Shown here: positions 6,049 through 27,981 of the stretch, piece by piece
Layout: every line of letters begins with the position of its first letter
Position numbering within the stretch: position 1 is the stretch's first letter
IMG/VR virus record: IMGVR_UViG_3300009124_000077
Span: 1 to 28,284 of that record
DNA: 28,284 nt
Direction: 5' to 3' (one strand)
Source of the DNA: a virus
The notes under the pieces: model-generated
Database searches by the model: none
What the model was told of the DNA's origin: nothing
What the model saw: the letters and a program-made list of their open reading frames with translations, nothing else
Program-made: the position numbers and the translations under genes

Positions 6049-6477
6049 CTAATCTTCTGTAATAGTAGAAGCTGTAGTAACAACCGGAGCGATACCATTA
6101 CCGCACACGATGTTAGGTGTTAAAGTGCCCTTGTACAGCAATTTACCTGCACCTGATGACAACGTTCCTACACCCACGTGCGTAGCAGTACCCGATCCGC
6201 CAGTACCTGTCGGGAATGTAATGTTCGCTACAGGACTTACTGAATTGCCAGTTACCGTCCATCCACCTGTAGTACGAGCAACTGCTACCCTTGCGTAAGA
6301 TGTGTATGCAATTTCACTTGTTGTCTGATCTCCTGCTTCACCAGGATCTGCTGTGTGTAAACTCACATACAAGTTGGTAAGAGGAGACGACGCAGCGTTA
6401 TCCGCAATATTGGCAATTGCAGTTGCGTTAAACACCAACTTAAGAAAATCATTTTCAAACGTATTACCCTTAGACAT
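6049..6477 (-). CDS. Small tail/fibre-like protein (142 aa)
   Basis: Residues 30-60 read LTNLYVSLHTADPGEAGDQ, then TTSEIAYTSYARVAVART; the remainder gives NITFPTGTGGSGTATHVGVG and a SGAGKLLYKGTL segment. The order LYVSLHTADPG, E(I)xYxxYAR, ItFP, THVGVG, GKLLYKG matches a widespread family of small phage tail-fibre-associated proteins, known to me from annotations of tailed phages. SD AGGAGTTGAG precedes ATG at 6477. It sits just ahead of Rz and just after another small beta-rich tail gene. The family call is fairly firm; the exact tail location is not. Confidence 0.82.
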   Translation of the reverse strand: MSKGNTFENDFLKLVFNATAIANIADNAASSPLTNLYVSLHTADPGEAGDQTTSEIAYTSYARVAVARTTGGWTVTGNSVSPVANITFPTGTGGSGTATHVGVGTLSSGAGKLLYKGTLTPNIVCGNGIAPVVTTASTITED

Positions 6478-6494
6478 AACTCAACTCCTATTAA

Positions 6495-7088
6495 TTAAGT
6501 GATAGAAATACTACCATATGCGACTTGAACAATCCTGCCAGTCGTCAGCGTTACTTCCAGATCGTAGTACCCGACATTCCAAGTCAATGCTGCCGTTTGA
6601 AGCGTAGCAGTAATTGCTTTCGTAGTATCGTCTAATAGCAAACCAGAAGAAGGGGAACTGGTCAGTGTTGCTAAAACAGTGCCAGTCTCAGGAGCATCTC
6701 GGATATATAACGACGCTACAGCTCCTGCCAAACTAACCGGATTCTGATAAACAAGAAATCCTCCCGAAGTGTATGCATCGAAGTCGGCGGAATTGACTTC
6801 ATCAAACTGCACATTATTTGCATCAATTACAGATACTCTTTTCCACTCAGCCGCCCCTGGAGGATACCCTTCCGCATTGGCTTGAAGCATACCTCGCGCA
6901 GACACGACTGCAGCTCTCCAGTTATTTACCATTCCATGTCCAGTAGCAGTAACAACCATTGGAGCTGCTTGTGAAATTGCACTTATTGCTTTACTTGTAA
7001 GCGTCCCATCACTCCAGAAAAACCGTTTCTGGAACGTCTCTCCTTTCTTGACGCAGAAATCAACCGTCTCAGCGCACCCGCAACTCAT
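6495..7088 (-). CDS. Tail-associated structural protein with cysteine-rich N-terminus (197 aa)
   Basis: The N-terminus MSCGCAETVDFCVKKGETF has three cysteines within twelve residues (3, 5 and 12). The middle includes VVTATGHGMVNNWRAAV (about 45-61), followed by V(I)DANNVQFDEVNSADFDAYT and GGFLVYQN; the order 'TxxGHGm... V..AN.VQF...' is seen in phage baseplate or tail-fibre junction domains. The C-terminal 70 residues form a second beta unit (SLAGAVASLYIRDAPETG...). It overlaps the end of the 2078-aa gene by 20 bp, with GAGAGG upstream of ATG at 7088. A tail adaptor or minor tail protein is inferred. Confidence 0.78.
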   Translation of the reverse strand: MSCGCAETVDFCVKKGETFQKRFFWSDGTLTSKAISAISQAAPMVVTATGHGMVNNWRAAVVSARGMLQANAEGYPPGAAEWKRVSVIDANNVQFDEVNSADFDAYTSGGFLVYQNPVSLAGAVASLYIRDAPETGTVLATLTSSPSSGLLLDDTTKAITATLQTAALTWNVGYYDLEVTLTTGRIVQVAYGSISIT

Positions 7089-10000
7089 CGCTCAACCTCT
7101 CTCTTAAATTAGTCGTCGTATTACCTTGAAGCATCTGGAGCAGTCTGCCCATATCCCTTGAATCCGTCATAACTCCAGTGCCAGATAAAACCGCTGTTTC
7201 TGTACGTTTGAGTCGTTGTTTTAGGATTCTATCAGGATCGAATGTACCTTTGTCGGGATTATTCAATTGAAATTCAGCCATTTCCGCACCAATCTTCTGT
7301 ACAGCTTCCAAATCTCCCTTCTCAAGTGCATCAGCCATTTTCCTACTTAACTCTGATTTACGATTGTCCAGTATCTTATCTATGGTAGTAAATGATCTGG
7401 TATTTCGCTGCAGCTCCGTTTTAACGTTTGGAGTTATATTCAAAGCTTGTAAGAATACATCCCATCCATTCGGTTTGATCGGTAAAGAAGAACCCTTTAA
7501 TGTCGTAAATCCATTGATTGCCAGATCAGGTGCCTTAACGAATCCTTGGAACGCAGAAGGCATCATCATTACCATGCCTTTAAACAGATCCCCATCAATA
7601 ACCTTCTCAGCACCTTGCACTATATTTGCAGCAGCTCCAATTGACGGCCCTAACATTGCCAATGCTCCTGACTCTAACTTATCCGATAGATCTCTACGAT
7701 CAGATAAGAACTGAGAGAATGGTACTATGTCGGCCAGAGATAGCCGTGTACTGAACGTACCGCCCGTTACTTTATCAATAACCCCGTGCGCCAATATATT
7801 TGCAGCATCATTGCCCAGCATGCTTGAGAGCATACTTATGAAATCAGCCCTAAAATCTTTAGGATCATCATCGCTACCTGCAAGACCGCCATACGCCCAC
7901 CCTAACAAACTAACACCAGGCAACCCCATCGCACCTGCCATTAGTATTACAGTGGCGGTAAGACCTGCCAGAGCCTTTCTTGCCTCGGCTTTTTCTACAC
8001 TAGAATTAGAAAATGATTGAGTGACTAGGCTACTTAACAGTTGCAGCATTTGCATATTAAACTGCATGAACCCTGTAAACAACGGAGTAAGCTCTCCAAA
8101 CATACCTTTCTTAGAGAATGCAATGGACCTGTTTTCTGGATCGTAATTGAACTGCGTGTTAACAATTGACTGCATCCCGTAAGTAATGGCCTTATCGATT
8201 ATCTGATCCTGAGTAAGCCCACTATCCTTAAGCTTTTCTACTTCAAGGTTGAACGCGGTAAGCCCCACCGATATCCTGTTCAGCGCCTCAGAGAAGTGAG
8301 ACGCAGCGCCAAACGTCTTCGCCACCGTATTCCACCCTTCTGCTTCGCCTCGTTCAATCCTTCCTAGACCATGCGCTTGCGTAAATTCTAAGTTTCCAGA
8401 GTCGATAAATGCATGCATCGCTTTACGCTCACCAGGATTCAAATCTGCGCGATCGATCGCAATATGAGCATCAAGTATACCCTTCCAACTTTTAGCATCG
8501 TCCCAGCCCTTATTAATTGATTCCTTAAGGATTGATGCTGCTTTCTTACTGGACTTAAACATTTCGCTAAGCGTTTTCGTGAATCCATGCCGTCCACCAA
8601 TAACAGGAAGCCCCACCTGCATTGGTTGCAGTAAGTTAGTTAGGATGTAAGGCACGCTGCTTGCCAAGAACATCGAATACCCTAACGAAGACAGCCTGTC
8701 CAACGCCGGAGTATCCAAAGGCTGCATAGAATTGTCCAACCTACGCTTGAGATGGTTAAACACGTCATTAGCAAGCGCGATCCTTCTGACGTCCTGAGTC
8801 GGATCTACCTTGAGCTTGTTAAGCTCAAATCTCATATCCTTTATTGCTTCCATTATTTCAGGCCGCACCGTATTGTGAGCTACAAGATACGCTGTAGCAG
8901 ACGCCTTCTTAACGAAGCTCCTGCGCATATCCGCATCATACCCAGGAACTCCCTTACGTCTGGCCAACTGCTTACCACCAGATACTTCAGGCATCATCTC
9001 CACAAATATTCTACGAATCAGCTCTTTAGTATCCCTCTTCTGATCCTCTGCAATCCTGGTATCGGCATCCACCCTGGTAAGCATGCTCTGAATAAAAGAT
9101 GGAGAGTCGCTATCTAACGCGTTAAGATTTTCCTCTACCTTACCTACCTCAAGACCATCAATAGCGCCAGAATCCTGCAATTTACGAAGTAGTGATGTTT
9201 GAGTAGTCCACTGTGACTCTTGCTCAAACCTATTCATTATCGAACTTCCTGCTTGATACTCGAATGCATTAAATTGATTAGATGCATCCATCGCTGCTTG
9301 AACAGCTAGTGGGTTAATCACCTTATATCTTACAAAGAAATCCCCGTACCGACCCAAATGAAAATACGGGCCTCTCAATTTCGCAGCCCTAAATTCCTGC
9401 ATAGATGTAAGCGCATTGGCTGCGTCAGAACCTTCGTTCTGGCTCATCCAGTCTTCTGCTGCGGATATGTCATCATAAAAGCTCTTGCGATCCCCAGCGT
9501 CTTCGCTCATTGCTTTAAGTGGATCCAATCTACTCCATATCTCCTGCGGAGCCTCGAACGTAAACGCCAGCGTACGCAACAACGACGCATACGACATATC
9601 AAAATCACGTCTGGTATGCTCTTGCAGCTTGTCATACACTTCAGCCACACCTTTCTTATCGTACAAAGACTTAAGATTATTATACGCCTGCTTGTCCTTA
9701 ACCGTTAACCATGGCTGCTCTTCGAAAGGTCTGTTTGGATATATGCCCAACCTCGTTGATTCACCCATCAGTTGGTAGAGAGCTTTCTGTGACTGAGGAT
9801 TGTCGGACAGCGTGTCAATACTCTTAACATTAAGAGACACGTCCTTATTCATCTTGGACACCATCGCACTTGTTCTACCAAGCGCAGACTGCCAGTTGGC
9901 CATCAACCTCTGAAGGTTGCCCCCAAGTATTCTGCCGTAGAACTCGGATATATGGCTTCCTGTAGAGAAGTACATGTTAGCCTTATGCATGAAGCCGGTT

Positions 10001-13000
10001 ACTGATGGAACGCGAGATTCCACAAACTCTTTAGCGTCACTGAGCAACCCATCAACCCTGTCCATTGCCTGAGCAGGTCCGTCATTGAATCTAAGACTGG
10101 TACGAATATCCTCTACCTTTCTAGGTACTCTATCTCCAACAACTTCCACATCTGCCTCAAGACCTACAGATTGCGCTCCTGCTACCAGCTCTTCAACTTG
10201 ACGATCGGTAAGGACGACCGGACGATCGAATACCTTAGCTATCCAGTTGTTTATGTAGCTAACAACCTTATCCCATAACTTGAGATTGCGGACTCTGCCT
10301 TCCCTAGCCATGTCAGCTAACACTTCTTCTGTAGCTTCAGCCTTAGACAGTCCTCCAGATTTCATACGAGCGTCCACATCCTGCTTAACCTTAGCATTCG
10401 CAGAATAGACCTGATCCATCGCATTTGATAACTTGTTACCGAATACCTTCCTCAGACCTCTATGCACAGCTTCGTGCAGTGCCACAAACGTAGCTTCTTG
10501 TATATTGGATATATTGCTCGCGATCACATAGATGGAGTCTGTCGCAGCACTCGTGCCTGGTATGTACACACCTCTAGCAGTGCCCTCTAATCCCTTACTT
10601 TCAAGATACTTCCTAGCTCTTGGTGGTAGCGATTTAATGCTACTTACTACATTAATCTTTATGCTTCCAGCAGGTAACTTTCCAGCTAATTGCTTGCGGA
10701 TACTTTCAGCAGACACAGTTTTGCCCTTTGTTCTAATATCGCTACTAGGCGATGCTTTAACGTCAGGAATGTCTGTAATCTTAGTATTTACTGCTTGTTT
10801 TGCGCTATTAGAGAAGTATGCATCAAGTACGGAATCTACCTCATCCAGGAACTCCTTATCGACCTTGTTAAACTCTCTGTCTATTTCTGACAAAAATACG
10901 TCAGCATCAACAGCGTCATTAACAACCACACCTCTACGAATAGAATCTTCTGCAGCTTCAATATTCCGTCTGCGCTGTTCTTCCTCAGATAGCTTTTTGA
11001 CTGCAGCAGCTTTCTCTCTGACCGGAGCAGCATCTCTAATAGCGCTTAATGTCTTACTATTTGACCAGCCTTTAGCAGCCCCTATCCTAAGATACTTCTC
11101 TACAATCTCTGGATGACGCTCAGAAAGCTGCATGAATTCCTTGGTTTCTTCATCTGTAAGAGCATCCTCAGCGGTTTCTGTTGCAGCAACTTCTCTCACA
11201 ACGTCATCAATTGATGCTGCTTCCAATATTCTTTCTTCTACTGTTTTAGGACGATCTAACTTACTAGCACGAGTAAATTCAGACTTACCTTCTTGGATTA
11301 CTGGAGGCTCTGCAGTACTGACTCCTGCGACTTCAGGTCTAGACTCTGGCAGACTGGAGCTACTAATTGCCAAACCAGGTAACTTATCCTGAGCTACTTG
11401 TTCCTGAACCACAGTCTGCACTGGTATAGGAATATCCTTTGCCCTATCAAAGCCTCTAACAACGCTGTTAAACTCAGGCAGCTTAAACCCGGATGGTTGC
11501 TGAGCTACTTCACTCGCAGGCTCTTGTAACTCTGCAGGAGCTGCAACTTCCTCAACTGCTTGCGCACTCGTAACTTCTTGATCAACTGCAGGTTCCGCAG
11601 CAACTTCAGTCGTACTGGCACTGGGTGTCTCCTCATTAATTTTAGCGACTCCTGGAGTCAGGTCATCTGCTTCCAACTCGTTACGCTGAATTACTTCTGG
11701 TGCCACTTGAGCTTGTTCGGTCGCAGGTGCCTGCTGCGTTTGCAGCTCATCCAATCGACGTCTGTATTCTGTAAGCGTATCTTGTATTGCTCCTGATTTA
11801 GAACGAGCGTACTTCTCTTGAATAGCTTCTAATATCGTTATCTTATCTTGAACGCTATCCACCCCAGAGAATGCTCTGATGATGTCTTTTCTAAGATTCT
11901 TAGGTACTGTAGCCCCTATAGTAGCCCCTATAGACTCTAATTCTCTTGCTGTGTTGAACCTATCTGTTTCTGGGCTTTTAACCCCTGCAGCAGCATCTCT
12001 AGCAATCTGGATGTTATCCCTAAGCCTTTCTGAATTAACGCCTTTGTACTGTACGTTTAAACTCTTGGCCTCTTCTACAAGATCAACTCGACCCATCTCA
12101 TTCAACGGCCTGGCTACCTGTTTGCCACTAAGCGCGTCCACTGTAGCCTGATTCTTAGCTGCCTGTATTGTATTCTCAATAGCAGCTTCTTTCTCAGCAG
12201 CTACCTCATTCTCATTCCTTAACCTATCCTCTTGAGCACCAAGAGATACTGTCACATCGGCAGGTTTCGCAGCTTCTGTCTGAAGTTTCTTCTCTATGTC
12301 CTGCACAGTACTTACAGACTCCTCTGCCTTCTGTAACTTATCCGCAGACATCTTGTTAAGTCTACCTTGAACCGCTCCAATAGATGCACCTAATGAAGAT
12401 CCTATTAACGCACCTTCAGCAGAAGATAGCGCTGCATTCTTCAATAAATTATCAAGCTTGGCCGCTGAAGGATCTGTAAATTTCGATGTAGTTACGTCTC
12501 CTGCGATAGATTCGAAGAACGATTGGGCAGCCTCTTGAACAGCTTCACGTCTTGCACCTTTTGCAGCGCCGCTAATAATACCTACAGCCTTCTCTGCTCC
12601 ATCCCCAAACACCCCACCTGCCGCACCTTTTGACAGCCTTCCAGCAAGTACTGAACCAGCTATCGTAGCCATCGCAGAACTCACACCACCTGTAGGCAAT
12701 GCCTGTGCCTTGGTAGCTGCTCGAGCAATTGCATCTCTAACCGCTTCCGGCTTATCGCCATGCTTTGCGTATGCTGCCTGATAAGCTTTTGACGTCTCCA
12801 ATAATTTCTGACTCGATGCTGCGTCTATCTCTGACGCTTGACGACTCGCACCAGACGGAGCAGTAACTAAAGCCTCTCCAGCGCCAAACGCAACCCCTCT
12901 CGATACTGCTGGAAGCGCTGATCGTATCAGCCCACCAGCTACACCACCTGCTAATGTTCCTGGAGCAAACTGTGCTGACTTACCTAATACAAACTTGCCA

Positions 13001-13305
13001 ACACCTACATCACCCTTAAACACATCCTCAATCCCAGAACTAAATACCTTCTTACCTTCCTTAGAGAGCGTAGGCACTATGTCTTTCTGGATAATATTTT
13101 CCTGTTTCTGACGAAATGCTTGGCCTGCCTGCATTGTCTGAGGCCTGCCAGTCGCGGCTCCTATACCCTCTGGAATGGCTCCTAAACTGCCAACAAACTG
13201 ACGAGCACCTATGTTAGCAAACTTGGGGAGATCGCTTACAAAGCTGCTACCGCCTCCAGATTTTAACGAATCCAGGTACTTCCTGTTAGCATCATTCAGA
13301 GCCAC
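7069..13305 (-). CDS. Giant putative ejection/internal virion protein with metallopeptidase-like and PLxRFG-like motifs (2078 aa)
   Basis: GTG start at 13305 with TAGGAGAG upstream. Visible in order: hydrophobic, glycine-rich segments at about 90-320; charged coiled-coil-like helices (about 315-395); a SAP/HeH-like helix-turn segment (406-438); a Glu/Ala/Val-rich linker (about 520-650); an HEAVH zincin motif at 944-948 with EE at 993-994 as third-ligand candidate; a long helical region; PYFHLGRYGDFF at 1313-1324, a variant of the PLxRFG signature of large phage proteins; a hydrophobic segment at about 1775-1805; and a helical C-terminus. Size, late position and neighbours suggest a protein packaged in the head and injected with the DNA, as T7 gp16 or large polyvalent phage proteins are. 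Enzymatic activity is only predicted. It overlaps the next gene by 20 bp. Confidence 0.82.
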   Translation of the reverse strand: MALNDANRKYLDSLKSGGGSSFVSDLPKFANIGARQFVGSLGAIPEGIGAATGRPQTMQAGQAFRQKQENIIQKDIVPTLSKEGKKVFSSGIEDVFKGDVGVGKFVLGKSAQFAPGTLAGGVAGGLIRSALPAVSRGVAFGAGEALVTAPSGASRQASEIDAASSQKLLETSKAYQAAYAKHGDKPEAVRDAIARAATKAQALPTGGVSSAMATIAGSVLAGRLSKGAAGGVFGDGAEKAVGIISGAAKGARREAVQEAAQSFFESIAGDVTTSKFTDPSAAKLDNLLKNAALSSAEGALIGSSLGASIGAVQGRLNKMSADKLQKAEESVSTVQDIEKKLQTEAAKPADVTVSLGAQEDRLRNENEVAAEKEAAIENTIQAAKNQATVDALSGKQVARPLNEMGRVDLVEEAKSLNVQYKGVNSERLRDNIQIARDAAAGVKSPETDRFNTARELESIGATIGATVPKNLRKDIIRAFSGVDSVQDKITILEAIQEKYARSKSGAIQDTLTEYRRRLDELQTQQAPATEQAQVAPEVIQRNELEADDLTPGVAKINEETPSASTTEVAAEPAVDQEVTSAQAVEEVAAPAELQEPASEVAQQPSGFKLPEFNSVVRGFDRAKDIPIPVQTVVQEQVAQDKLPGLAISSSSLPESRPEVAGVSTAEPPVIQEGKSEFTRASKLDRPKTVEERILEAASIDDVVREVAATETAEDALTDEETKEFMQLSERHPEIVEKYLRIGAAKGWSNSKTLSAIRDAAPVREKAAAVKKLSEEEQRRRNIEAAEDSIRRGVVVNDAVDADVFLSEIDREFNKVDKEFLDEVDSVLDAYFSNSAKQAVNTKITDIPDVKASPSSDIRTKGKTVSAESIRKQLAGKLPAGSIKINVVSSIKSLPPRARKYLESKGLEGTARGVYIPGTSAATDSIYVIASNISNIQEATFVALHEAVHRGLRKVFGNKLSNAMDQVYSANAKVKQDVDARMKSGGLSKAEATEEVLADMAREGRVRNLKLWDKVVSYINNWIAKVFDRPVVLTDRQVEELVAGAQSVGLEADVEVVGDRVPRKVEDIRTSLRFNDGPAQAMDRVDGLLSDAKEFVESRVPSVTGFMHKANMYFSTGSHISEFYGRILGGNLQRLMANWQSALGRTSAMVSKMNKDVSLNVKSIDTLSDNPQSQKALYQLMGESTRLGIYPNRPFEEQPWLTVKDKQAYNNLKSLYDKKGVAEVYDKLQEHTRRDFDMSYASLLRTLAFTFEAPQEIWSRLDPLKAMSEDAGDRKSFYDDISAAEDWMSQNEGSDAANALTSMQEFRAAKLRGPYFHLGRYGDFFVRYKVINPLAVQAAMDASNQFNAFEYQAGSSIMNRFEQESQWTTQTSLLRKLQDSGAIDGLEVGKVEENLNALDSDSPSFIQSMLTRVDADTRIAEDQKRDTKELIRRIFVEMMPEVSGGKQLARRKGVPGYDADMRRSFVKKASATAYLVAHNTVRPEIMEAIKDMRFELNKLKVDPTQDVRRIALANDVFNHLKRRLDNSMQPLDTPALDRLSSLGYSMFLASSVPYILTNLLQPMQVGLPVIGGRHGFTKTLSEMFKSSKKAASILKESINKGWDDAKSWKGILDAHIAIDRADLNPGERKAMHAFIDSGNLEFTQAHGLGRIERGEAEGWNTVAKTFGAASHFSEALNRISVGLTAFNLEVEKLKDSGLTQDQIIDKAITYGMQSIVNTQFNYDPENRSIAFSKKGMFGELTPLFTGFMQFNMQMLQLLSSLVTQSFSNSSVEKAEARKALAGLTATVILMAGAMGLPGVSLLGWAYGGLAGSDDDPKDFRADFISMLSSMLGNDAANILAHGVIDKVTGGTFSTRLSLADIVPFSQFLSDRRDLSDKLESGALAMLGPSIGAAANIVQGAEKVIDGDLFKGMVMMMPSAFQGFVKAPDLAINGFTTLKGSSLPIKPNGWDVFLQALNITPNVKTELQRNTRSFTTIDKILDNRKSELSRKMADALEKGDLEAVQKIGAEMAEFQLNNPDKGTFDPDRILKQRLKRTETAVLSGTGVMTDSRDMGRLLQMLQGNTTTNLRERLSDELRVR

Positions 13306-22480: not shown

Positions 22481-22858
22481 TTAAGCCTCTCCAAGCATCC
22501 TATAAGGAAACCGCAATTTATCCTTGTACCCGATTACTGTATTCGACCCATCAGTGATAGGCACTGATTTAACTGCGTCATTCAAGACATTCAACAGTAC
22601 TGCAGGGACTGAAGCCTCTAACCCTGGTTTAAGTATGTAACCTGTACCATTAATCCCTATGAACTGACCTGTAGGAGGAATCTCATCGTTTTCTTCAAGA
22701 ATGATTCTCACTCTTTTTTCTGTAGATTTTGACGCCTTTTTAGCCACCTGAACTGGCTCGTCAATTAATTTATCCTTCTCTATCAGAGATGCAATTGAAT
22801 CATCGTCTGAATCTTCATCCCACCCTGAACTGTTACTCGGTTTCTTCGTCGCCATCAT
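22481..22858 (-). CDS. Small conserved head-region protein (125 aa)
   Basis: The start is chosen as ATG at 22858 (MMATKKPSNSSGWDEDSD; a second ATG at 22855 is equally possible) because AAGGAAGAGG lies directly before it and a longer in-frame version from 22945 would overlap the previous gene by over 100 bp and add a basic stretch of no clear sense. The first 50 residues are acidic and disordered; about 60-120 form a compact domain (RVRIILEENDEIPPTGQFIG, NGTGYILKPGLEASVPAVLL, then a helix and RFPYRML). The 'IppTG..iGiNG..yiLkpG..v.VP' pattern resembles small proteins next to capsid genes in many phages; role unknown. Overlaps the 91-aa gene by 26 bp. Confidence 0.75.
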   Translation of the reverse strand: MMATKKPSNSSGWDEDSDDDSIASLIEKDKLIDEPVQVAKKASKSTEKRVRIILEENDEIPPTGQFIGINGTGYILKPGLEASVPAVLLNVLNDAVKSVPITDGSNTVIGYKDKLRFPYRMLGEA

Positions 22859-23108
22859 CCTCTTCCTTTGAAAATTCTTCAAAAGCCTTGTCGAAAACGT
22901 CGTTCTCGCTGGCTTCCATTTTATAATTTGACAGAGCTTTTTCAATAAACTCAGTCATCTGCTCTTTGTCAGTTTCTTTAAAGACGTATCTCTTGTACGG
23001 ATCGTTGTAAGACCCCTTGCTCTTATTGTTTTTCTCTTCTGTTTTTTGACTGAATACCTCAACAACAAAGCCATTCCTTTCAACTTCAATACTTAAGATA
23101 CGTCTCAT
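22833..23108 (-). CDS. Small acidic-tailed protein with FDxAFxxFS motif (91 aa)
   Basis: Residues 1-60 look like a small alpha/beta domain (RRILSIEVERNGFVVEVFSQ, RYVFKETDKEQMTEFIEKAL). Residues 72-80 are FDKAFEEFS, the same motif found near both ends of the scaffold protein (FDSAFDAFS and FDSAFDEFS). The last 11 residues are almost all Asp/Glu. SD AGAAGG lies in the end of the decoration-protein gene. The shared motif suggests that it docks on the same partner as the scaffold, perhaps the capsid or portal; that is inference. No known family recognised. Confidence 0.72.
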   Translation of the reverse strand: MRRILSIEVERNGFVVEVFSQKTEEKNNKSKGSYNDPYKRYVFKETDKEQMTEFIEKALSNYKMEASENDVFDKAFEEFSKEEDDGDEETE

Positions 23109-23112
23109 GTTA

Positions 23113-23439
23113 TTAACCTTCTGCTAACCAAACAAATGTTTTACTAGCTGCCATTGTTACCGCAGTTAGCGTAAACGAATTACCACTAACCGCAACACCA
23201 TTGGTCGTCTCTAACGTTCTCGTACCTGCTGCAATAGTATGAATAGAACTAGCTGCTGCCATACCTTCGAACCATTCATCAGAAATACGATCAGTCACAT
23301 TATGGAATGCAACGCGTTTAGGCTCAAACCCTACGTTAATCGTCAGTGCTGCGGCAGCGCCACCATCACTCACAACTAAACCCTGCGCTCTTTTAAGAAC
23401 GCCATCAGCGTTCTTTTGAGTATTTGTCGTAAATGCCAT
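23113..23439 (-). CDS. Putative capsid decoration/cement protein (108 aa)
   Basis: A small beta-rich protein encoded directly after the major capsid gene, the usual place for decoration proteins. Residues 28-60 read AAALTINVGFEPKRVAFHNV, then TDRISDEWFEGM, followed by alternating strands ending SKTFVWLAEG. The 'V.vGF.Pk.V...N.td....eW..GM' pattern is known to me from small proteins in this slot of N4-gp56-capsid phages. SD TAGGAG eight bases before ATG at 23439. No signal peptide or cysteine. The alternative is an unrelated minor head protein. Confidence 0.72.
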   Translation of the reverse strand: MAFTTNTQKNADGVLKRAQGLVVSDGGAAAALTINVGFEPKRVAFHNVTDRISDEWFEGMAAASSIHTIAAGTRTLETTNGVAVSGNSFTLTAVTMAASKTFVWLAEG

Positions 23440-23467
23440 TTCAAATTCTCCTATTCAATAGCTAAAA

Positions 23468-24502
23468 TTAGGCTGTAGCGGCACATTCCAAACGGCACAT
23501 CCAAGCGTCGTTAAGAATTTGAGTCGCGTTGTATGTCTTCCAACCTACAGTTCCACGTTGACCTAACGGATCTCCAGGGCTAGGACGAGCATTAACAACC
23601 ATCGGTTGCAATGAATTTTTACCTTTAAGAGATACAATACCGAACGCATCACGAGCCAAGAAAATAACTGGGTATACGTCTGCATTTGTGCCACTGGTTG
23701 ATCTCATCAATCCTTTTGCGCCACCTGCATCAGCAAACGGTTCGAAGATTGTGGAAGTCAAATAGCGCACCTGATCAACGTTACCAATCTCACTTTCATA
23801 CGGTGTAACAGTTCCATACTGTTTAGGATTAATGTAACCAGAGAGGCTACGAATATCTGTTTCCAAGTCTGGATGGCATAGTGCAAAATAAGACGCCTCC
23901 ATTGGTTGAGTATTGTAGTTGGGGGTAGACATTACTTGATTAGCGATCTTACGCGCATTTTGACGTGCAAACGCGGTAGTTACTTGACGTTGTTTTGCCA
24001 AAGTAATCGCAGTATTTACAGCCGCTCTATTCGCTCCGTTGTTGTAAACAACGTTTGTACCTGCTTTAACTACGTTGAAACGAACCGTTTCGATCGTAAT
24101 TGCTGCAGACTCACCCAATACTTCAGTTGCTTGCCCCAATACTGGATCCTCATGAGTATCCTCTACTACATCAGTAATGGTCACATAGTCACCATATTGA
24201 TCTAACGTAGCTGTGTAGTCTTGGTTTGCCAATTTTTTACCTGTTGGCGTAACACCTTCTACTAAAGGAGTGGTCGCCAATGGCACAAAGAAATTGCTTG
24301 CTGGATTACCATCACCCGCAGATCCGGTAGCTCCTGACAAGAAATAACGTCTCCATTTTGCTACCTTGGTAGACTTACTAGGCATAACAAACGCTTGACC
24401 AAACTTCTCAAGCAATAAAAATGGCATCCCGCGTTTCAGCAGTTCAGTAACCGCCCAAGCTGCTGTACGTGGGCTAATATCTCCGTAAATTGTTGCTGGC
24501 AT
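23468..24502 (-). CDS. Major capsid protein, N4-gp56 family (344 aa)
   Basis: Encodes the building block of the head shell. Residues 18-53 (VTELLKRGMPFLLLEKFG ... MPSKSTKVAKWRRY) show the family N-terminus: a helix with 'KRa.P.L.leKFg' then 'mP...s.tv.wrRy'. LVEGVTP at 80-86, QYGDYVTITDVVED (102-115), the CHPDLETDIRSL segment (209-220) and an EPFADAGG loop (about 252) complete the pattern. Length is usual for the family. It is preceded by a strong SD (AGGAG about eight bases before ATG at 24502) and the only large non-coding gap in the window, consistent with high expression of the most abundant virion protein. Confidence 0.92.
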   Translation of the reverse strand: MPATIYGDISPRTAAWAVTELLKRGMPFLLLEKFGQAFVMPSKSTKVAKWRRYFLSGATGSAGDGNPASNFFVPLATTPLVEGVTPTGKKLANQDYTATLDQYGDYVTITDVVEDTHEDPVLGQATEVLGESAAITIETVRFNVVKAGTNVVYNNGANRAAVNTAITLAKQRQVTTAFARQNARKIANQVMSTPNYNTQPMEASYFALCHPDLETDIRSLSGYINPKQYGTVTPYESEIGNVDQVRYLTSTIFEPFADAGGAKGLMRSTSGTNADVYPVIFLARDAFGIVSLKGKNSLQPMVVNARPSPGDPLGQRGTVGWKTYNATQILNDAWMCRLECAATA

Positions 24503-24540
24503 ATTTCGCTCCTATTAAAAATTATTAACTTATCTCTAAT

Positions 24541-24569
24541 CGTACAGCCAGCTTGTATTGGCGTCGTAC
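24541..24569. other. Imperfect inverted repeat between scaffold and capsid genes
   Basis: The sequence CGTACAGCC ... GGCGTCGTAC can fold as GTAC pairing with GTAC and GCC with GGC, interrupted by an asymmetric internal loop, around a ten-base loop. There is no T-run after it in the direction of transcription, so it is not a convincing intrinsic terminator. An RNA processing or stability element in the capsid leader is possible. Weak. Confidence 0.3.
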
Positions 24570-24593
24570 TAGGTTTACATACTTCACTGCGTG

Positions 24594-24623
24594 ATTTTAC
24601 ACATAAAAACACTTTTAAAACAA
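24594..24623 (-). promoter_or_regulatory. Possible sigma70-type promoter ahead of the capsid gene
   Basis: On the minus strand TTGTTT (24618-24623) and TAAAAT (24594-24599) are separated by 18 bp, close to a host sigma70 promoter, with the transcript start expected near 24587 and about 85 bases of leader before the capsid ATG. It is in the only gap of more than 100 bp in the window. The region is AT-rich, so a chance match is possible, and a phage-specific promoter could not be tested with a single gap. Confidence 0.35.
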
Positions 24624-24646
24624 TTAATTTGACGCATTTACTACGC

Positions 24647-25618
24647 TTATTTCATATGTCTGACTTGAGAAAACTCGTCAAATGCACTATCAAAATCATT
24701 AGGATCAGCCCCTGTAGTAGCTGCCGTCTGTTTAGACTTGACTGCTTTTAAAACGTTTGCTGCTTTCTGAATATTAGGATCTGTAACCTTCTCGACCGTG
24801 CGGATTGTTGGTTTTGTTTCAGCAACCTTCGGCGTACCTTTACTGCCATACCCAGTCTCCTTCTTGAAGTGATTTATAAATTCCGCCACTTCTTTTACAG
24901 AACCATTCTGGATAACTTCGTTGTATGCACCTTTTAAAAACGCTGGCTGGGTCTGCGCCCACTCAATCGCCTTATCTCTTACTACATCATAATCTTCTAC
25001 TTCAGACTTCAAATCCCTGTACTGATCTTTAGGGCTTCTTTCATTTATGTACTCAATCATCGGCTGTATTACTTCTTGCACCTGATCAAACACATATTTA
25101 ACTACCTTACTATACTCATCTCGTCTGATGAGCGCTTCCGCCGCAGCTACCTCGGACCATTCCTCCTTGTACTTTTTAATAGCCTCTATTTCTTCTGCTG
25201 TGTAGGTAGGTTTTTCTTCTTGCTGCTCAACCTTTTCCTCTGCAACATTTGGGACTTGTTCTTTAAGTTTCCTAAGTTCTGCTAACTCCCTCTTAAGTGC
25301 TTCTAACTCTTCATTATTTGCACCAGATTCTTGAACCTGTTTCTTTCCTTCTTCCGTTCCATCTTCAACCTTAGTTTCTTGCTTCTCGTCACTTCCTTCC
25401 TCCTTCGTTTCCTGATCCGATCCTTCTTTGTTCTCTACCGATTCTGAAGTTCCTGGCTCACCCCCATCATCTTCTTGATTCTGTTCTGCCGAATCTCCCT
25501 CTTTAATCTCTTCGTCCGGCTCTTTTGGTACATCTCCATTACTAAATGCATCAAACGCGCTATCAAACGCACTGTCTTCTCCTGTACTAACCTCTTGATT
25601 TTCCATTCCATCAGCCAT
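24647..25618 (-). CDS. Scaffold-like protein with duplicated terminal motif (323 aa)
   Basis: A strongly acidic, low-complexity protein just before the capsid gene, as expected for the head-assembly scaffold. Residues 30-100 are Glu/Asp/Lys/Gly-rich; 100-160 form a charged helix (NNEELEALKRELAELRKLKEQ); 160-290 are helical; the tail is short. FDSAFDAFS at 18-26 is repeated as FDSAFDEFS at 309-317, and FDKAFEEFS occurs in the 91-aa protein. C-terminal helices of scaffolds usually bind coat protein, so the motif may be a coat-binding helix used at both ends (inference). SD AAGGAA, and the start overlaps the previous stop as ATGGCTGA (8 bp). Confidence 0.8.
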   Translation of the reverse strand: MADGMENQEVSTGEDSAFDSAFDAFSNGDVPKEPDEEIKEGDSAEQNQEDDGGEPGTSESVENKEGSDQETKEEGSDEKQETKVEDGTEEGKKQVQESGANNEELEALKRELAELRKLKEQVPNVAEEKVEQQEEKPTYTAEEIEAIKKYKEEWSEVAAAEALIRRDEYSKVVKYVFDQVQEVIQPMIEYINERSPKDQYRDLKSEVEDYDVVRDKAIEWAQTQPAFLKGAYNEVIQNGSVKEVAEFINHFKKETGYGSKGTPKVAETKPTIRTVEKVTDPNIQKAANVLKAVKSKQTAATTGADPNDFDSAFDEFSQVRHMK

Positions 25619-25892
25619 CTATTTTTCCTTTATATCTAATTTTAATTTCCAACGGAGCCTTTAACAGCTCCTTATGCATTCTTTCTAGCTGAGCCAACTC
25701 AACCGCTATCGAAGTAAGCATTTCTCTATCACCAGAACTAACCGTTGCCGACAGATCCCGAAGGCATCGCTCCGCTTCCAAAGATATCTTCTGGTTGAGC
25801 AGCTTGGCCACCCTGTACATCTCCGGTTCCTTGAGCAATTTGCACAAGTCCCCGTTTATCTCCGCCAATTCCTGACTCAGACTCTTTTCCAT
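25611..25892 (-). CDS. Small helical protein overprinted on the portal 3' end (93 aa)
   Basis: Start chosen as ATG at 25892 (MEKSLSQELAEINGDLCKLL...) because AAGGAG sits six bases before it; an in-frame GTG at 25910 lacks such a site. The protein is almost all helix with basic and acidic residues, no signal peptide, and ends KIRYKGKIDG. It overlaps the portal gene by 155 bp in another frame: the portal reading of this stretch is Gly/Ser/Gln-rich and simple, while the small protein has a normal heptad-like composition, which suggests that the small protein is the constrained reading. It overlaps the scaffold start by 8 bp. A scaffold or portal accessory role is possible; unknown. Confidence 0.7.
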   Translation of the reverse strand: MEKSLSQELAEINGDLCKLLKEPEMYRVAKLLNQKISLEAERCLRDLSATVSSGDREMLTSIAVELAQLERMHKELLKAPLEIKIRYKGKIDG

Positions 25893-27981
25893 TCCCTTCT
25901 CCTTTGCCACTTAATTCCGCTGCATTTATACCCTGCTCCATCGCATCCAGCACCAACTCTGCTGACTGAGCCTCTGCTTGCGCCATGTTCTTATTCGCTA
26001 AAGACACTGATTTAAACGCATCAGCCAGTACTTTTCTCAGCTCAGCTCTCAGCATTTCTTCCTGCTGCATCTGTTGTTTAGCTATCGCTTCCTGCTCTGC
26101 CTTATCTATTTTCTCAGCTTCTATTGGGCTTACAACCACACTCTCTGCGTCCAGATCTCTCACTCTTACTCGAGCAGCGAGCAGATCTCTAAATTTGACG
26201 TATTTTTTCTCCTCATCTGACAAACTATTGACCAAGTTATCAAGCTGTATGCCAAGCACTTCTTTCGCCATCAAACTCGTCGCCCCTCTTGCAACTGGGG
26301 TGAAATCTCCCTTTATAGATTTCATATCTTTGTTAAACAGTTTATTGAAAGTCACAATAGACCCAATCACAGACTCGGTAAACACGTCAAAATTTCGCAC
26401 GACGTCTTTAAATGGTAGTGCTGCCATACCCTGCAACATTGACGCTCCTGCTGCAGTTCTGAACGGTTCTGAAGGGCCATTCTGCATATCCCCTCCTGTT
26501 GCAGCATTTACGAACGTCTCTTCGTCTGAGAATTCCTTGAACATCTTTACCATATTCTGCAGTTCTGGCAGGAACATCGGTAATTCTATCGCTCGTATCG
26601 CAGGTATATGCGCCGTCGCTGGACCATCTTCCCGATACCAAATCTTATCTGTGTAAATGTTCATCGTATCCTGATCTTGTACCAGCATATCCCTATTCAC
26701 TTCGAAATTACGCATTACGGATGCATTATCCAACAACATCCTTGTACTTGCACAGACACCTAACTGACTATCTCTTACGATCGATGGAAGCCCTTCTCCC
26801 AACATATTCGTATCATCTTCCTCAAATATGAAGTGATGATACATCGGTACAGTCCTGCCTTCGTTCATTGAACTCCATGGATCCAGATGCGCCATGATCG
26901 GTATATTTTCTACAATCATCACATGCGCGATAACATCATCGCTGACCACATTATCAGGTACTGGTATCCCTGCTTCCCTGAACGAGTCTGCAGAGATGTG
27001 TCCTATATACCTGAAAATTTCGTACTTGTTACTAGATTCCATACTAACCGCACTTTGGTTGCCTATCTCTTTCAACTGCGTTTCGAACGAGTAGCTCTTA
27101 TAGTTGCCGTTTGGATGTCTTCGGATAACTTCGTCGATCTTGTCTTTAAATACAGTTTCCGACCTATTGTTCGCCATCTCGATCAGCTCATGTTTTGACA
27201 TAACGATACGTCTGAAACTACCTTCCATTTGATGGAAGTACTTGGCACTCAGATCTGGATAATAGTCCCAAACAGGCACAAAATCGAAGCAAGGCCTGAA
27301 CTTATCCATCTTATTCTCTACCAACGTACCATCCAGATCTCTCGTCCAAGTACGTGCTCTTACACTTTCCGCAAACGGCCCTTCCAATACCCCTATGCCG
27401 TAACGTATACCACTCTTCAATACTTTGCGACACAGCGCAACGTACGATAAGCTCTTATCTCCGCCTAACTCCTGCAATTGATCATCTATCTCTCGCTCTA
27501 ATCGTTCTGCCCTTAATTTCGCAAACTTATAGATCGCTTCTTCTATTTCCTGATCAGTTGATTCTGGCGCGATACCTTCAAGTATTCCCGATAAATCTTC
27601 GCTACTTAATTCAGGAACCGGAGAAGGTCGTATTTCGTAGTTCTTTTCTCCTGCAGTAAACAGCAGGTTCATCAGTCTAGACAACATTGATACGCATTTA
27701 ACCCTTGTAAGCTTCGGGTACGCCTTTGATCTGTTGCCAATCTTCGTCTCTATTTCAGGATCATACACACCTAAAATCTGCCGTACATTCTTTATCCACT
27801 GATTCTCATACGATACTCTATCCCCTTTATACTTTTCAAACTTGGCTCTAAGTCTAGTTCCTAGCGCCATTAACGCCTTATCGTTCAGTACGGGTGCAAT
27901 GATTTGACTTCCGGCATCTGCGCCTTCTTCTACTGCTCCTACCGTTACGTTCTTTACTGATTCTGTTTGAGACTCTGCCAT
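25738..27981 (-). CDS. Portal protein (747 aa)
   Basis: Forms the dodecameric ring at one capsid vertex through which DNA enters and leaves. The length (747) suits large podoviral portals. Visible traits are the N-terminal TRLRAKFEKYKGDRVSYENQ and WIKNVRQILGVYDPE (about 42-75), the RVKCVSMLSRLMNLLFTAGE segment (about 92-112), a loop WDYYPDLSA near 237, and MLGEGLPSIVRDSQLGVCAS (about 392-412), matching the 'G.gi....r..Q...n.....' region of portals. The C-terminal 100 residues are a coiled helix (QEAIAKQQMQQEEMLRAELR) followed by a flexible Gly/Ser tail. SD AAGGTGATC overlaps the end of the terminase gene. Order terminase-portal-scaffold-capsid supports the call. Confidence 0.87.
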   Translation of the reverse strand: MAESQTESVKNVTVGAVEEGADAGSQIIAPVLNDKALMALGTRLRAKFEKYKGDRVSYENQWIKNVRQILGVYDPEIETKIGNRSKAYPKLTRVKCVSMLSRLMNLLFTAGEKNYEIRPSPVPELSSEDLSGILEGIAPESTDQEIEEAIYKFAKLRAERLEREIDDQLQELGGDKSLSYVALCRKVLKSGIRYGIGVLEGPFAESVRARTWTRDLDGTLVENKMDKFRPCFDFVPVWDYYPDLSAKYFHQMEGSFRRIVMSKHELIEMANNRSETVFKDKIDEVIRRHPNGNYKSYSFETQLKEIGNQSAVSMESSNKYEIFRYIGHISADSFREAGIPVPDNVVSDDVIAHVMIVENIPIMAHLDPWSSMNEGRTVPMYHHFIFEEDDTNMLGEGLPSIVRDSQLGVCASTRMLLDNASVMRNFEVNRDMLVQDQDTMNIYTDKIWYREDGPATAHIPAIRAIELPMFLPELQNMVKMFKEFSDEETFVNAATGGDMQNGPSEPFRTAAGASMLQGMAALPFKDVVRNFDVFTESVIGSIVTFNKLFNKDMKSIKGDFTPVARGATSLMAKEVLGIQLDNLVNSLSDEEKKYVKFRDLLAARVRVRDLDAESVVVSPIEAEKIDKAEQEAIAKQQMQQEEMLRAELRKVLADAFKSVSLANKNMAQAEAQSAELVLDAMEQGINAAELSGKGEGNGKESESGIGGDKRGLVQIAQGTGDVQGGQAAQPEDIFGSGAMPSGSVGNG

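Follow-up and report, generated by a model that had tools for sequence, protein, structure and literature searches.

A putative docking helix at both ends of a predicted phage head scaffold and on a small protein encoded beyond the capsid gene

The stretch of viral DNA analysed here, hereafter the window, is a virus record of 28,284 bases. Its head genes are arranged on the minus strand in the order portal, scaffold, N4-gp56-type capsid, a 108-aa protein, a 91-aa protein and a 154-aa protein, followed by the neck genes. The features on which the following analysis is built are these:

25738..27981, minus strand: portal protein (phrog_332, E=8.6e-22; PF23899 SU10_portal below cut-off), considered below as an alternative docking partner
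24647..25618, minus strand: predicted head scaffold of 323 aa, its gene lying between those for the portal and the major capsid protein (MCP) and immediately preceding the latter
25541..25567, minus strand: scaffold N-terminal motif FDSAFDAFS, residues 18-26, within a predicted helix (16-26)
24854..25198, minus strand: helical body of the scaffold, residues 141-255, pLDDT mostly >90 in the AlphaFold2 model
24668..24694, minus strand: scaffold C-terminal motif FDSAFDEFS, residues 309-317, within a predicted helix (309-320)
23468..24502, minus strand: MCP of the N4-gp56 type (phrog_1357, E=8.5e-52; PF25209), homologous to the solved structures 9d7z, 9e99, 9d82 and 9bgn
24323..24502, minus strand: N-arm region of the MCP (its first 60 residues; net charge +6), the docking site proposed by analogy
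23113..23439, minus strand: 108-aa protein between MCP and small protein, kept in relatives and without the motif
22833..23108, minus strand: small protein of 91 aa, carrier of the third motif copy
22869..22895, minus strand: small-protein motif FDKAFEEFS, residues 72-80, inside a predicted helix (68-82)

A 99-aa open reading frame (ORF) with a GTG start (25611-25910) covers the 3' end of the portal gene in a different frame, together with the first bases of the scaffold gene, and a similar ORF of 70-116 aa is located between portal and scaffold in several relatives. Elsewhere the window encodes a 2078-aa protein (7069-13305) whose C-terminal half matches phrog_10089, a DarB-like antirestriction family (E=2.6e-48), and a 142-aa protein (6049-6477) that matches Pfam PF23140, the fibre protein gp80 of the Ralstonia podophage GP4.

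Used as the sole query, the capsid protein retrieved four viral contigs; the 91-aa protein as sole query retrieved nothing from viral contigs or from phage records, so that an alignment with relatives was needed. Searches with alignments of the capsid, scaffold and small proteins detected about 220 loci in viral contigs and in bacterial genomes, to which phage records such as that of Pseudomonas phage Rollin, an isolated phage that possesses all three motif copies described below, were added. Removal of duplicates left 169 non-redundant relatives, 94 of which encode both the scaffold and the small protein.

We predict that the 323-aa protein is the head scaffold from its gene position, its composition and its modelled structure. 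It has a weak profile match to phrog_4866, 'head scaffolding protein' (E=0.022), and about 146 complete homologues occupy the same gene position. The net charge of the protein is -35 and its arms are acidic and of low complexity. In an AlphaFold model based on 72 sequences, a helix spanning residues 16-26 leads via a long low-confidence arm into a confident helical body (residues 141-255), and on the C-terminal side a second low-confidence stretch precedes a helix at residues 309-320. The location of the gene between those of portal and MCP and the predicted helical body with flexible charged arms both agree with assignment to the scaffold class.

Homologues of the 91-aa protein were recognised in 98 relatives, mostly less than 1 kb after the MCP gene. 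Its model (95 sequences) comprises a confident beta-beta-alpha-beta-alpha body up to residue 61, followed by a linker and a lower-confidence helix (68-82) that bears the motif. The 96 family members have no match in Pfam and PHROGs at the limits used, apart from two single-member matches, and the body has no significant fold match in the PDB and BFVD; comparison with these four collections points to an undescribed protein family. The body diverges about as fast as neck, minor head and head proteins, a pace that would be expected if a head component were inherited vertically. In two relatives without a recognised small protein (L062 and L154), the region beyond the capsid gene encodes a different protein of 117-167 aa (MNANxVMAYxDxIPTMVKGDKDYIR). 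A Polynucleobacter prophage (L192:346-639) contains a 97-aa ORF with a motif-like N-terminus, KNEYEAAWNEGGEEAK, and the scaffold at this locus ends in DNYEDAWNQA.

All three copies of the motif, FDSAFDAFS and FDSAFDEFS at the scaffold ends and FDKAFEEFS in the 91-aa protein, are found at the residues given in the initial annotation, and the two carriers do flank the capsid gene, with the MCP and 108-aa genes between them. An ungapped 13-column profile of the motif has the consensus [DE]-[FY]-x-x-A-[FW]-x-E-[AFL]-A; the window copies score 28.0, 25.1 and 21.5 on this profile, and the best match elsewhere in the window scores 10.5. Among the 169 non-redundant relatives a score above 8 is reached at the scaffold N-end in 91% of 147 cases, at the scaffold C-end in 92% of 157 and at the C-end of the small protein in 96% of 96 (92/96); after thinning to <80% MCP identity the corresponding counts are 68/75, 71/81 and 40/41. 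Among the roughly 95 phages with both proteins, almost every one retains the motif in all three places. The two top profile matches coincide with the two ends in 140 of the 146 complete scaffolds, the top match falls within the last 45 aa in 96/96 complete small proteins, and the maximum reached by capsid proteins is 6.0. Relatives that keep both proteins while losing the motif in one of them, which the initial annotation had regarded as counter-evidence to its proposal, are not the pattern we observe: the lowest-scoring small protein, that of L160, belongs to a locus in which all three copies deviate from the consensus together. In 47 relatives whose downstream sequence was searched over 2.5 kb or more, the small protein was not recognised; their scaffold generally keeps both motif-bearing ends, so the principle does not depend on the third copy.

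Since the first profile had been trained on all three positions, a second one was trained with the scaffold ends only. On this profile, too, the top match of all 96 complete small proteins falls within the last 45 aa; 85% of them lie above the 99th percentile of shuffles, a threshold exceeded by 0.2% of the 515 further ORFs located after the capsid gene. The converse profile placed its two top matches at the ends in 91/103 near-clade scaffolds. Acidic amphipathic helices may recur in unrelated proteins by chance or through composition, and acidic, alanine-rich sequence is indeed frequent in these proteins, but neither shuffled proteins nor other ORFs nor shifted registers reproduce the observations. 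These controls already refute such an explanation, to which we attach next to no credence, and bear out the earlier judgement that a chance origin was unlikely. In a set of 11 complete phage genomes comprising 5,684 ORFs of 40 aa or longer, all but four of the matches scoring at least 13.5 belong to the scaffold or the small protein; the four others (in G011, G009, G005 and G017) lie in the interior of other proteins. With almost only two carriers in these genomes, a generic packaging tag on many virion proteins can be ruled out.

Copies that bind one and the same site are expected to change together. In sets thinned to <80% capsid identity, the scaffold N copy resembles the C copy of its own genome far more closely than the C copies of other genomes (z=10.7, n=70), the C copy resembles the small-protein copy of its own genome (z=4.1, n=41) and the N copy resembles the latter as well (z=2.1, n=40, p=0.02), whereby these matching statistics are drawn from sequences that are still related, and thinning lowers the effect of kinship without removing it. 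The matching between scaffold and small protein is much weaker than that between the two scaffold ends, and within the near clade alone the values are z=3.3 (N-C), z=2.5 (C-small) and z=1.4 (N-small; p=0.08, not significant). A register shift of 1-4 residues in one copy abolishes nearly all of the within-genome matching. The 12 residues upstream of the C-terminal and small-protein motifs, which served as a flank control, gave z=2.1 (p=0.02), so a small part of the C-small signal may stem from shared ancestry or composition. In distant relatives the pairing of the scaffold ends is obvious by eye, with N- and C-terminal copies reading DAAALFTTLAGQ and DPVQLFTHLASQ in L009, DDAVSLFNQLTDS and TDPVELFNRLSAS in L217, QEYDAAWDEAGKG and DDYDSAWDEAGAK in L220, and FDADAAFNEVADT and LDEDALFNQIANQ in L202. 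The three window copies are written in different synonymous codons and hence are not a recent DNA duplication. Codon identity at matched columns equals the expectation from codon usage or falls slightly below it, which argues that the likeness of the copies is maintained by selection on the protein; gene conversion between the copies is ruled out by the same result.

We consider it fairly probable that the motif is a short linear docking helix for one common site in head assembly, presented by a two-headed scaffold and a one-headed small protein. Conservation at three places in a large and diverse set of relatives, in-register matching and near-confinement to two genes give good support to the shared docking site that the initial annotation had envisaged, while the partner, for which it had named the capsid or the portal, is something that we infer. 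In the scaffold, flexible arms would extend from both sides of the helical body, with an acidic amphipathic helix at the tip of each, so that a single molecule could hold two shell subunits. The small protein would present the same helix on a short C-terminal linker behind a compact 60-residue domain. By docking at a site of this kind, the protein could place its domain against the inside of the procapsid shell. It would presumably be a procapsid component that is attached during assembly; filling vacant sites, bringing the domain to the wall or helping the release of the scaffold are candidate roles for it.

The motif is acidic, with a mean net charge of -2.4 to -3.3 per 13-mer, and each of the three copies is acidic in 90-98% of cases. 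This property bears on the idea that the motif binds to itself, such that the scaffold tips pair and the small protein caps the scaffold through the same helix-helix contact. Homotypic pairing would likewise make the copies alike within a genome, but the acidity of all three disfavours the pairing of like helices, and the AlphaFold monomer, a model blind to dimerisation, puts the tips on separate flexible arms; we regard self-binding as improbable. Docking to the shell agrees better with the charges, as the MCP begins with a basic region in all relatives tested (mean net charge +5.1 over its first 60 residues). Given an acidic motif and a basic N-arm region, and given that a scaffold end touches the MCP N-arm in 80alpha, P22 and phi29 (PMC12749128), the basic N-arm region of the MCP is by analogy the most likely docking site. 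The acidic-motif/basic-N-arm pairing is weaker in the Schitoviridae, where the first 60 capsid residues of ten members carry charges from -2 to +4.

The common site might instead reside on the portal or another minor head protein, where scaffold tips and small protein would gather at nucleation. The scaffold of P22 does bind its portal, partly via a loop in the inter-subunit clefts (PMC12005531), and a tree-based test of motif columns against MCP and portal columns left nothing surviving correction and did not favour the capsid over the portal. A discordant-pair test of correlated change was confounded by clade. Yet twelve portal subunits would not account for an abundant, divalent scaffold, the terminal scaffold contacts of 80alpha, P22 and phi29 are made with the MCP N-arm, and the acidic motif suits the basic region of that arm, which together make a portal site unlikely.

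Two further readings assign the motif to the fate of its carriers. It could serve as a tag through which a protease or release factor recognises and clears the scaffold, with the small protein either being cleared, or acting, alongside it. Both carriers could well be transient, and scaffolds are degraded in many phages (general knowledge; PMC12005531), but the window proteins that were scanned gave no match to a protease family, and a helical, strictly spaced F-x-x-A-F at both extreme ends suits docking better, so that we judge a clearance tag to be very improbable. The small protein could also be cargo that enters the head by means of a capsid-targeting tag and acts in the next host cell in the manner of the T4 internal proteins. 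A small compact domain with a terminal tag would be in keeping with this, and T4 IPI*, a compact protein of 76 residues, is packaged via the capsid targeting sequence (PMC3012670). The T4 internal proteins are, however, highly diverse, whereas the body of the small protein keeps pace with head and neck proteins and the tag occurs on only one small gene per genome, as seen in the 11 whole genomes. A component of head assembly therefore fits better than a swap-prone injected protein such as IPI*, and the chance that the small protein is cargo appears slim.

The statement that no system of this form had been described was too strong. SaPI1 CpmB, a protein of 72 aa, shares a scaffold-like C-terminal motif with the 80alpha scaffold and competes with it for one capsid site that touches the N-arm (PMC5644958), and the small protein described here similarly has a terminal motif in common with the scaffold. 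CpmB shows that a protein of this type is able to compete with a scaffold, a role that the initial annotation had proposed for the small protein in head maturation and that it may have. Unlike CpmB, a parasite-encoded protein by which capsid size is redirected, the small protein is a product of the phage itself; its motif is acidic, D-[FY]-x-x-A-[FW], and does not match the C-terminal RIIK helix-and-hook of CpmB; and, unlike the 80alpha scaffold, the scaffold of the window bears the motif at both ends. The shared C-terminal motif thus has a known precedent in SaPI1 CpmB/80alpha, and docking by both ends combined with a phage-encoded third copy is a new variant of it. We found no report of both-ends docking in the open-access literature, which is weak evidence since the search was limited to open access. 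The capsid targeting sequence of T4 is comparable in being a short terminal tag common to proteins that enter the prohead core (PMC3012670), but T4 has several diverse, fast-changing internal proteins in place of one conserved small carrier and both scaffold ends. The proposed contact would resemble those of P22 gp8 and the phi29 scaffold, where a scaffold end reaches the inner capsid surface at the MCP N-arm (PMC12005531; PMC12749128). For these the contact is described for one end, in contrast to the motif at both ends seen here, and the P22 hook is basic and its N-arm acidic, a charge pattern that is reversed in the window.

A comparable arrangement occurs in coliphage N4, whose gp57 is encoded in the gap between portal and capsid (L275:13084-14301, NC_008720 53083-54300) and annotated as 'tail length tape measure protein'. 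One end of gp57 contains MSDEEILNMP and the other MSDEDFMKLP, and the N/C repeat is present in 11/12 Schitoviridae homologues at a shuffle p<0.03. As in the window, a gene between portal and N4-gp56-type capsid specifies the same short motif at both ends; the N4 motif differs in sequence from that of the window clade, and N4 has no third copy, nothing else in its genome coming close. These features suggest that gp57 of N4 and related proteins are head scaffolds despite their annotation as tail tape measures. In the F116 group, phage 8P has GDLTPEQAAQLL and ANMTPEQIEDLL at the two ends; the resemblance is significant in 8P only and less clear in its relatives, and the FDxAF motif was not found in F116-like scaffolds. 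No N/C repeat was found in T7 gp9. Taken together, the repeats in N4, the Schitoviridae and 8P make a two-ended docking motif look common in N4-gp56-type phages, with a sequence that is specific to each group; a small protein bearing a third copy was encountered in the window's clade alone. It is conceivable, if somewhat doubtful, that N4-gp56-type phages in general rely on a two-headed scaffold with one group-specific docking helix at both ends, and that the window's clade adds a phage-encoded, one-headed protein at the same capsid site, which would uncouple the scaffold or time its release and would be an endogenous counterpart of the CpmB competitor. Matched end helices in many lineages with different motifs, and in the model phage N4, suggest a bivalent scaffold and provide the exact residues to mutate, and the third copy on the small protein suggests that an occupant of this site is built in.
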